Of a stretch of DNA of 64,000 nucleotides, positions 6,285-27,611 are shown one piece after another. Position numbers and translations under genes: made by a program. The notes under the pieces are model-generated. The model was given only the letters and a program-made list of their open reading frames with translations, ran no database searches and was not told the DNA's origin. This DNA is from Brachyspira alvinipulli ATCC 51933 (GTDB lineage Bacteria > Spirochaetota > Brachyspiria > Brachyspirales > Brachyspiraceae): contig NZ_JADF01000018.1 in assembly GCF_000518245.1 (NCBI RefSeq), forward strand, positions 1-64,000. Direction: 5' to 3'. Numbering within the stretch: the first letter of the stretch is position 1; every line of letters starts with the position of its first letter.

Positions 6285-6408
6285 AAGGAGGTGAGCCGAG
6301 CCTTCACGGTAAAGAGTGAAACGAATTACCGTGCTATTATTTAGGCGACCAATGTAGGCACCCTTGCGGGTGGGCGAACATTGCCTTCGGCACGCAGGAG
6401 CGGCAACA
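6285..6408. other. GC-rich hairpin stretch at a deletion junction
   Basis: These bases are far richer in G and C than the surroundings and hold three short stems: CACGGTAA (6305-6312) / TTACCGTG (6326-6333), a CCC-TTGC-GGG hairpin near 6361-6371, and GTGCC/GGCAC-type pairing around TGCCTTCGGCAC near 6381-6392. They occupy the place where portal, head, sheath and tube genes should lie. They end in AGGAG (6396-6400), which serves as the ribosome site of the tape measure gene. Confidence 0.55.
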
Positions 6409-8397
6409 ATGAGTAATATAACAGCTGGCGTTTTAATAAAATTAAAAGATCAATTCTCTTCTGGTATTGATAAGGCTTCCAATAAAGTTAATTCTTTTCA
6501 GAGTAAAATGCAGGGAGCTTTTTCAAAAATAGATGGGATATTAAACTCTACAGCAAGTAATTTAGCTACTTTAGGAGTTTCTATAGGCGTAGGTGCTACA
6601 ATTAATAAAATGATAGCATTTGAAGATAGGATAAATAAAATCGGAACTATAGCAAGAAGAAATGCTAAAGATGTAGAAACAGCAGAAAAACAATTAAATG
6701 GTTTAAGCGAAGCTATATATAAAGCAGCTATGCAGCCAGATATTAAAGTAGATGCAAATGAAATTATTGATGCTATGGACATTATAATGACTAAAACAGG
6801 CAATATGGATTTTGCTAAAGAAAATATAGAAAATATTGGAAGAGCTATGAGAGCATTTGGGGCTTCTGGTTCTGATATAGGCTCAATGATGTCTGAGTTT
6901 TCTAAATTGAATTATTCTGCTGAAGAAACTGCAAAACTAATGGATGAGCTTTATTATCAAGGAAATCAGGGTGCTTTTACGGCTTCAGAGTTTGCTAAAT
7001 TTGGACCAGCTATAATAGCAGCTTATTCAAGTATTGGAACAGCTTCAGAAGATTTGAAAAATGCCAATGCTGTTATGCAGGTATTAACTGCAGGTACAGG
7101 GGATGCATCAGCTTCTGTTACTGTTCTTGAAAGTATTATGAGTGATTTAACTAATCCAGAAATACAAGAAAAATTACAAAATCTAGGAAATATTATAGGA
7201 GCAGACTTTTCTGTTAGAGATAGTGAGGGAAATTTTAAAGATTTGCATGAAATAATTATGAAAATAGTAAATGCAAAAGATAAAATGGGCGGTAATTTTG
7301 ATATGCTATCAGATGTTTTTGGATCGGATTTATCAAGAGAAGCCATAAAGCATTTTGATAATTATGATGAGATATTGGAAAAAGTTTTAGATGTTTCTAA
7401 TGCTCAGGGACAAGTAAATGCATCTGCAATGGAAAATGCACAAAGTTTGGCAGCTAATATACAAAACTTGCAGACAGCTTTTGATTCTTTTGCCAATAAA
7501 AATGTAGCACCATATTTAGAAAAAGTTACAGGAATATTAAATGATTTTGCTAAAAATCCTGAAAGATTTGATGCCGTATTCAAAGTTATAGCAGCTGGAT
7601 TTGGAATATTTATGACAGCAAAATTGGTATCAGGGGTTGCTAATACAATTAGTTCAATAAACAGTTTGAAAAATATGGCAAAAGGCAATATATCATCTAC
7701 GCTGCAAGCGGACAGTCGTCATATACAAGGAACAGGAACTCCTATTCCTGTTTTTGTTACAAATATGGGACAGTTTTTTTCAAATGGAAATAATTCTAAC
7801 ACATTCAATGTAGGTCAATCATCTTCAAATATACCAAATATCAATAATGGAAAAATGACTTGGAAAAGTTTAGGAAAAACAGCAGGTGCTATGGGTGCTG
7901 CTGTTACTGCTATACCAATGGCTATAAGCGGATTTATGGCTGCTAATGATCCTTCACTTTCAAAAAAAGAACAAAATAAAATGAAAGGTGAGGCTGTTGG
8001 AGGAGCCGTTGGAAGTATTGCGGGTACAGCTATAGGAACTAGTGCTGGAGCTGCTACTTCCGCTGCTATAGGTTCAGTTGTTCCTGGACTTGGCACAGCT
8101 ATAGGGGCTTTAGTAGGTGCTGGTGTTGGTATTGCGGGAGGATATTTAGGAAGCAAACTTGGCGGAAAAATTGGAGAAAGTTTGACTAAAGAAGATACTT
8201 TAGAAAAAACTATTACTGCTAATAATATACAAAATAACAATGCTCAGGTTGAAATGAAAGGAGCTGCTAATATTGGAGTAGATATAAAATTGACAGATGA
8301 AAGAACTTATTATAAAGCTACTCCATACAATAATAACATACCAAATATAAATATACAAACAGGAAATATTGAAGAAATAAGAAATTATTCTTCTTAA
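6409..8397 (+). CDS. Phage tail tape measure protein
   Basis: A protein of about 662 residues that sets tail length and helps DNA entry. I start it at ATG 6409 (MSNITAGVLIKLKDQFSSGI), eight bases after AGGAG. An upstream in-frame TTG at 6364 would add residues coded by the GC-rich junction. The first 400 residues have TP901-type tape-measure character (KAANKVNSF-like start, TAKLMDELYYQGNQGAFTAS, SDVFGSDLSREAIKHF). Near the C-terminus is a Gly/Ala-rich membrane-active stretch (AGTAIGTSAGAATSAAIGS, then VGAGVGIAGGYLGSKLGG). It is short for a contractile-tail phage. A small GC-rich insert lies at 7699-7721. Confidence 0.8.
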   Translation: MSNITAGVLIKLKDQFSSGIDKASNKVNSFQSKMQGAFSKIDGILNSTASNLATLGVSIGVGATINKMIAFEDRINKIGTIARRNAKDVETAEKQLNGLSEAIYKAAMQPDIKVDANEIIDAMDIIMTKTGNMDFAKENIENIGRAMRAFGASGSDIGSMMSEFSKLNYSAEETAKLMDELYYQGNQGAFTASEFAKFGPAIIAAYSSIGTASEDLKNANAVMQVLTAGTGDASASVTVLESIMSDLTNPEIQEKLQNLGNIIGADFSVRDSEGNFKDLHEIIMKIVNAKDKMGGNFDMLSDVFGSDLSREAIKHFDNYDEILEKVLDVSNAQGQVNASAMENAQSLAANIQNLQTAFDSFANKNVAPYLEKVTGILNDFAKNPERFDAVFKVIAAGFGIFMTAKLVSGVANTISSINSLKNMAKGNISSTLQADSRHIQGTGTPIPVFVTNMGQFFSNGNNSNTFNVGQSSSNIPNINNGKMTWKSLGKTAGAMGAAVTAIPMAISGFMAANDPSLSKKEQNKMKGEAVGGAVGSIAGTAIGTSAGAATSAAIGSVVPGLGTAIGALVGAGVGIAGGYLGSKLGGKIGESLTKEDTLEKTITANNIQNNNAQVEMKGAANIGVDIKLTDERTYYKATPYNNNIPNINIQTGNIEEIRNYSS

Positions 8398-26848: not shown

Positions 26849-26928
26849 ATTAATAGGGCTGCTTCCTCATAGTTTAAATCTTTTATCATATACTAATTTT
26901 AATAGTTAATCTAATTTTCGTATAAAAT

Positions 26929-27335
26929 CGTCCCCTAAGTCAATTTGTATTTTGACAATGGGGAATGAGTTTAAAAACTATATATAAAATAAGGAGTATA
27001 AAATGAAAAACAATAATTGTTTTCGTCCCCTTTCAGCTCCGTACCGGAGTGCTTCGCAGGGAATGAGTTTAAAAACGATCCAGAAATTTTTCAAATTCAA
27101 AAAAAATTATGGTATGGTTTTCGTCCCCTTTCGGGGAATGAGTTTAAAAACAAGGACATACTATTTTATGGTTTGAAAGATTTGGTCCCGACTGTTTTCG
27201 TCCCCCACAAGCGCAGCGCAGTGCCTACTTGGTCACGGGGAATGAGTTTAAAAACAAGCTTATATAATAATAAAGAAGTACTAATACGTTTATCTAGATA
27301 GTTTTCGTCCCCTCACGGGGAATGAGTTTAAAAAC
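26929..27335. CRISPR. Short CRISPR-like array with loop-expanded repeats
   Basis: Five repeats share GTTTTCGTCCCC at one end and GGGGAATGAGTTTAAAAAC at the other, with CCCC/GGGG forming a hairpin. Repeats 3 (27117-27151) and 5 (27301-27335) are 35 bases with four-base loops. Repeat 2 (27019-27076, 58 bases) and repeat 4 (27194-27255, 62 bases) carry extra loop sequence. Repeat 1 (about 26929-26978) has an enlarged loop and a degenerate start. The four spacers are unrelated and of CRISPR size: 26979-27018 (40), 27077-27116 (40), 27152-27193 (42), 27256-27300 (45). No cas gene is in the window. The array is small, so a hairpin repeat family remains an alternative. Confidence 0.55.
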
Positions 27336-27611
27336 CCGTAATTTTTTCTTAAATTTTTTGTAAAAATTTAGTAACATTTCTTTACGATACGGGGTTTTTA
27401 AACGGGTTTCTTCCTATATATGTTTTTAAACTCATTATGTAATTATCTAATATGATTGTAAAATTATATTTACTTACACATAGATATGTAATTATCAAGC
27501 CCTTTTCTATATAATTTACAAAAATTTTACTTTTATGTGTAAATAGGGATGTCAAAGAGCTTTTACTAAAAGTATAGTATATTTTACATAATTTTGCAAA
27601 TAATATATTAA
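27336..27611. other. Array flank with inverted half-repeats
   Basis: No gene is seen. GTTTAAAAACCC at the end of repeat 5 (27326-27337) is perfectly complemented by GGGTTTTTAAAC at 27392-27403, and the 15 bases at 27422-27436 (GTTTTTAAACTCATT) are the reverse complement of the repeat's right end. The AT-rich remainder may hold the array leader, but nothing specific is recognised. Confidence 0.45.

Follow-up and report, generated by a model that had tools for sequence, protein, structure and literature searches.

Array structure

The 64,000 nucleotides (nt) of Brachyspira alvinipulli ATCC 51933 analysed here (contig NZ_JADF01000018.1, positions 1 to 64,000; referred to as the window) harbour an array of clustered regularly interspaced short palindromic repeats (CRISPR) whose repeats vary in length through modules placed at the tip of the repeat hairpin. 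Five repeats were detected, separated by spacers of 40, 40, 42 and 45 nt from left to right on the plus strand, where the repeat arms read GTTTTCGTCCCC and GGGGAATGAGTTTAAAAAC; number, spacing and coordinates agree with a preceding interpretation made from the letters alone (the sequence-only reading). The latter also located inserts of roughly 24–30 nt exactly between CCCC and GGGG in three repeats. Their position holds (plus-strand first, second and fourth repeat, precisely between the CCC(C) and GGGG arms), while the measured length is 23–27 nt. The array is read on the minus strand, with repeat 1 as the leader-proximal (rightmost) one, and the repeat then has the form GTTTTTAAACTCATTCCCC-GNRA-GGGGACGAAAAC, its 8-nt tag, ACGAAAAC, resembling those of type III systems. 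The outer left end of the leftmost repeat (repeat 5) is degenerate, and an Rfam scan of the region retrieved CRISPR repeat matches at sub-threshold level only. The features are as follows (window positions, all on the minus strand):

27336–27500, CRISPR leader; start motif GCTTGATAATTACATA 165 nt from repeat 1; matches the leader beside cas1-cas2
27301–27335, repeat 1, leader-proximal, compact (35 nt), GTGA tetraloop
27256–27300, spacer 1, 45 nt
27194–27255, repeat 2, 62 nt, module beta in the loop
27206–27232, insert beta, CCAAGTAGGCACTGCGCTGCGCTTGTG, between GTGA and GGGG; close copies in repeat loops of G005 (contig C22), G024 and G004
27152–27193, spacer 2, 42 nt; antisense to a Shine-Dalgarno plus ATG pattern
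27117–27151, repeat 3, compact (35 nt), GAAA tetraloop
27077–27116, spacer 3, 40 nt
27019–27076, repeat 4, 58 nt, module alpha in the loop
27036–27058, insert alpha, TGCGAAGCACTCCGGTACGGAGC; all seven copies detected among 26 genomes lie in CRISPR repeat loops
26979–27018, spacer 4, 40 nt; antisense to a Shine-Dalgarno plus ATG pattern
26924–26978, repeat 5, leader-distal, degenerate tag arm, insert tau in the loop
26936–26959, insert tau, ATTGTCAAAATACAAATTGACTTA; common to four repeats of G032 (contig C128); fold z-score −3.8

Affiliation with a type III-A system

An alignment of nine leaders matches the block at 27336–27500 to the stretch separating cas2 from the first repeat on contig C7 of this genome (G000), and the distance from the leader start motif to the first repeat is 163–165 nt in all eight arrays compared, i.e., a conserved leader occupies one end. 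C7 carries cas1 and cas2 beside this leader as well as csm6 (318.8 bits), followed farther along by csm6-like genes, cas6, csm5, csm4, csm3, csm2 and cas10, a gene content (cas10/csm1 with csm2–csm5, cas6 and csm6) typical of type III-A. The encoded Cas10 includes an SGGDD sequence. The cas6 of G000 scores 56.3 bits against TIGR01877, slightly below the cut-off of 58.65, and its homologue in G005 passes the Pfam CRISPR_Cas6 model. Searches for cas1 and cas10 gave no match on the window's contig, in agreement with the sequence-only reading, which had found no cas gene in the window and had suggested looking for type I or III genes elsewhere. Because of the leader match to C7 and the complete cas locus on this other contig, the window block is, as judged from gene content and alignment, a genuine outlier array that lacks cas genes of its own and belongs to a type III-A CRISPR-Cas system. 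The CRISPR-like nature first proposed is thus borne out by the leader, cas1-cas2, cas6 and Csm complex of the genome as well as by spacer differences among related genomes, and the proposed alternative, another kind of hairpin array, finds no support.

Hairpin repeat, tag ACGAAAAC, leader and the set of cas1, cas2, cas6, cas10 and csm2–csm6 are shared with type III-A (Csm) arrays at large. Cas6 produces in most Class 1 systems a CRISPR RNA (crRNA) with a stem-loop and a 5' handle (PMC11127173). The exact compact repeat was searched in 84,980 species genomes, a set from which the window's own record is possibly absent, and was found on uncultured Brachyspira contigs only.

As a side observation, the G000 Cas10 (stretch L132, 9582–12131) contains GGDD, and no HD motif was seen by eye near its N-terminus; since the former is kept and the latter not seen, this protein may signal via cyclic oligoadenylate without a DNA-cutting domain.

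Loop expansion across Brachyspira

Searching related Brachyspira genomes for the two arms with a variable gap, as the sequence-only reading had proposed, revealed compact as well as expanded loops of the main repeat in G000, G002 and G005, and none with the reversed pattern as control. Counted more tolerantly, 14 arrays of seven genomes comprise 38 compact and 35 expanded repeats (one 133-nt AT-rich row of G005, contig C1, is spurious, and repeat 5 of the window is left out). All counted extra DNA sits between the stem arms; it accounts entirely for repeat lengths of 35 to 154 nt and has a mean guanine-plus-cytosine (GC) content of 0.53 in the expanded loops versus 0.30 in the spacers. CRISPR repeats usually are near-identical in length. 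In these arrays, the arms are conserved and the 48 unique spacers are AT-rich and similar in length (about 35–46 nt), whereas repeat length is not uniform; unlike in the usual type III-A arrays, a single array can contain loops as short as 4 nt and as long as about 120 nt.

Four repeats of G032 carry the tau insert of the window, and a diverged repeat, GTTTTTAAAATCAATTCCCC-CACC-GGGGACGAAAAC, in G024 and G004 contains beta-type modules in its loops. At a site syntenic with the window array, G031 (contig C26; stretch L082, 8100–10000) possesses a decayed array with leader and expanded loops, in which small open reading frames (ORFs) of unknown origin were also noticed. Orthologous repeats differ by whole modules: the repeat ahead of TTTTGATGAAATATAG is 106 nt long in G000 (contig C7) versus 154 nt in G002 (contig C96), with loops of 78 and 126 nt as given by the parser. 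Both versions share a core, to which the one of G002 has additional whole modules at both ends, and a loop of 48 nt in an adjacent G002 repeat corresponds to the interior of either version. From these loops, a stepwise series can be read: compact, epsilon, epsilon plus beta, and epsilon plus beta plus more.

The stems were correctly described as intact, as pairing probabilities of CCC with GGG are 0.63–1.0 in all 17 repeats folded, and stem base and 8-nt tag are unaltered in nearly all of them. Fold z-scores of the repeats are mostly modest, and therefore no selection for insert folds is claimed. Part of the C7 array of G000 reads N. The other CRISPR repeat type found in Brachyspira (ATTTAYATTCCAGTATGG...) served as control, no GC-rich stem having been seen in it; its spacing is uniform at 66–69 nt in three arrays, and a fourth has spacings of 67 or 135 nt.

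Age gradient along the arrays

In every one of the eight arrays built from the main repeat, the leader-proximal repeat is compact, and the nine youngest repeats of G002 are identical. Among the seven arrays with both kinds of repeats, the observed distance of the expanded ones from the leader was reached in none of 200,000 within-array permutations (repeat orders entered by hand). Adaptation would renew compact repeats at the leader, and older repeats would therefore display the accumulated load.

That expanded repeats are mostly leader-distal and that the arms of terminal repeats are degenerate would also be expected from ordinary decay of old repeats, with insertions occurring anywhere and selection retaining those in loops. 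Insertions into spacers should then be tolerated likewise, but the spacers adjoining expanded repeats are of normal length, low in GC and devoid of modules, and expanded repeats mostly have perfect arms; such decay is therefore regarded as decidedly unlikely.

Modules outside CRISPR arrays

The gamma module (about 25 nt) has the ends TACC..AAGGGTACTTCCTNCGGTCG, also written TACC...GGTCG, and is dispersed across the genus in unrelated hairpins. Its core, AAGGGTACTTCCTNCGGTC, was found in 21 of the 26 genomes (up to 47 copies), whereas the reversed pattern gave no match. With the same ends, gamma occupies a CRISPR loop (stretch L012), the loop of H1, a dispersed hairpin (L085, L093 and L099, the first in the window's own genome), and a place inside element X (GGTAATCAGCCGCACC...GGTGCGGGAAGCCACGCGGCGAGC), of which one copy with gamma (L067) and one without (L066) represent the occupied and the empty site. 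Fixed ends, unrelated flanks and occupied versus empty sites qualify gamma as a small dispersed repeat. H1 reads GTTCTTTTG...CAAAAGAAC or GCTTCTTTG...CAAAAGAAG and exists in a compact form, too. The possibility that a hairpin of this kind might be scattered singly as a mobile repeat, named in the sequence-only reading as speaking against a CRISPR array, thus applies to at least one insert module and not to the repeat itself. The minus-strand reading, the mostly compact leader-proximal repeats, the modules outside CRISPR and the unrelated hairpins filled likewise had not been foreseen there.

Independently of gamma, element X was observed directly ahead of repeats in the arrays of G005 and G032, with matches in 15 of 26 genomes (stretches L013, L010, L012, L014, L044 and L062–L080); no Rfam family matched in the L013 stretch tested. 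Within the window, a string of GC-rich mini-hairpins (CACCCTTGCGGGTG, TGCCTTCGGCA) at 6339–6418 resembles the loop modules, at a genome GC content of 27 %.

The filled hairpins bear on the possibility that loops are diversified adaptively, i.e., to reduce recombination between repeats and protect old spacers, or to tune the processing of individual crRNAs. Neighbouring loops indeed differ while stems are kept; however, unrelated hairpins without spacers are filled likewise and leader-proximal repeats are not diversified, rendering this explanation highly improbable.

Proposed origin of the expanded loops

Quite probably, mini-hairpin modules insert into hairpin loops, with the repeat loop of the type III-A system being a tolerated target. 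According to this proposal, the cas-less window array would be transcribed from the minus strand and be served by effector and adaptation genes located elsewhere in the genome. Repeats in the transcript would fold into a CCCC/GGGG stem with a GNRA tetraloop on top, followed by the 8-nt tag. Short (about 20–30 nt), mostly GC-rich and self-complementary modules would be added at the loops of older repeats, singly or successively, while adaptation would continue to copy a compact repeat at the leader. The modules would belong to a genus-wide pool of mini-hairpins which also fills the loops of unrelated dispersed hairpins, the CRISPR repeat loop being one tolerated target among these; apparently, the same process decorates CRISPR loops and other scattered hairpins in these genomes. 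Hairpin loops as such would accordingly appear to be the target of the insertion process. Loop modules would be tolerated because stem base and tag, presumably the parts needed by Cas6, are retained, and expanded repeats would be expected still to yield crRNAs. A more specific version, namely that a hitherto undescribed Brachyspira process specifically adds mini-hairpins of roughly 25 nt to existing DNA hairpin loops, repeatedly per loop, and is dated by CRISPR order, is put forward only tentatively and has somewhat less than even chances.

Several observations weigh against this proposal. The diverged arrays G024:C86 and G004:C1 are already expanded at the leader-proximal repeat, meaning either that the gradient is not universal or that these arrays no longer adapt. 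A test for stems enclosing gamma gave a moderate result (mean of 13.1 enclosing pairs versus 7.0 with shuffled flanks for 15 copies), and several of the 15 copies do not exceed the shuffled-flank control. No transposase candidate was identified in the search for Y1 transposases among the 26 genomes. Several genomes are metagenome assemblies, among them G002 (listed contamination 7 %) and G005; one 109-nt loop is identical between G000 and G002, which makes an assembly error less likely. Finally, all seven copies of alpha found in the 26 genomes at up to three mismatches reside in CRISPR repeat loops, with none outside, a distribution that both insertion and conversion of one repeat by another would fit, and the recurrence of tau in four G032 repeats fits the copying of an expanded repeat.

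Because alpha was found in CRISPR loops only, its spread has to be viewed with recombination between repeats in mind. Homologous recombination as the main route, with gene conversion from one CRISPR repeat to another, within or between arrays of a genome and following rare insertions, would require no loop targeting at all, and would also account for alpha lying beside different spacers. Moreover, a gene-sized interval with an ORF of 84–85 amino acids resides in the C7 array of G000 but at the window-syntenic site in G031, indicating that units move between arrays. Against conversion as the main explanation stand arms of just about 18 and 12 nt, many loops that are unique or nested, and the insertions outside any CRISPR array apparent from gamma, H1 and X. 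It is therefore considered rather unlikely in this role; recombination between repeats would nevertheless seem to spread modules alongside the loop insertion preferred here.

In the G024 cas10 match (stretch L107, G024:C108:38297–40405), one in-frame TAA was noticed. This may point to decay of the G024 system, a possible reason why its leader-proximal repeats are expanded.

As a mover of the modules, a Y1/RAYT transposase was rejected: Y1_Tnp matches were obtained in none of the 26 Brachyspira genomes versus five of 14 control genomes.

Relation to known mobile repeats

Cyanobacteria reportedly contain small dispersed repeats (Elhai and coworkers, 2008). These resemble the Brachyspira modules in being very small mobile units with precise insertion sites, and differ in organism and sequence; they are likened by features, with no common origin claimed. 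To our knowledge, CRISPR repeat loops have not been reported as a target of small dispersed repeats, and nothing on insertions into the loops of CRISPR repeats turned up in the literature library searched. Among the cyanobacterial elements, SDR5 inserts precisely into HIP1 sites (PMC4390886). REP/BIME palindromes are specific targets of the insertion sequences IS1397, ISKpn1 and ISPsy8 (PMC1525189). They likewise represent palindromic hairpin units serving as specific insertion targets, but take up a complete insertion sequence including a transposase, whereas the Brachyspira insert is a module of 20–30 nt with no known enzyme. Dispersed short hairpins are also shared with REP/RAYT systems, but not the Y1 (HUH) transposase. 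In two genome papers on Brachyspira, the only mention of CRISPR is its presence in B. murdochii.

The unusual point, then, is CRISPR repeats of variable length through loop-tip modules. As CRISPR repeats are usually treated as fixed in length, arrays like that of the window would probably be missed or truncated by array finders. Arrays are time-ordered and therefore provide a natural clock for the accumulation of mini-hairpins, by which the spread of tiny transposase-less repeats becomes testable. In addition, the natural loop variants probe how much loop Cas6 tolerates.

Spacers and intervals between repeats

None of 31 spacers compared with phages gave a significant match (best E value 0.6; plasmids were not searched), and IMG/VR contained no exact match for two window spacers. 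Nine of the 48 unique spacers from all arrays, including those at 26979–27018 and 27152–27193, are as crRNA antisense to a Shine-Dalgarno sequence plus ATG, and none is sense; with a background of 2.9 % estimated from the host window, the binomial P is about 1e-5. Type III guides may favour translation starts.

Some intervals between repeats are gene-sized (about 300–1520 bp) and contain ORFs in crRNA direction:

L015, 11196–11666, gene-sized interval
L009, 11246–11715, gene-sized interval
L011, 8937–9793, gene-sized interval
L133, 7733–9252, gene-sized interval
L082, 8260–9990, gene-sized interval

Such intervals occur in G000:C7, G002, G004, G005:C7 and G031. Their same-direction ORFs, some of them small genes behind hairpins of variable loop, are what an integron-like (attC) cassette array would contain in place of a CRISPR array. 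However, leader, cas1-cas2 and a full Csm locus are present, most intervals measure 35–46 nt, and the genes found beside the conserved leader are cas1-cas2 and no integrase (no search was aimed at integrases). In addition, the repeat ends do not match the attC R-box consensus. An attC origin is hence extremely improbable.

Four ORFs of the gene-sized intervals yielded Pfam matches below cut-off at best, and comparison of the 84-amino-acid ORF with viral contigs and phages revealed no relative. This ORF (84–85 amino acids) lies between repeats in G000, G002 and G031 alike.
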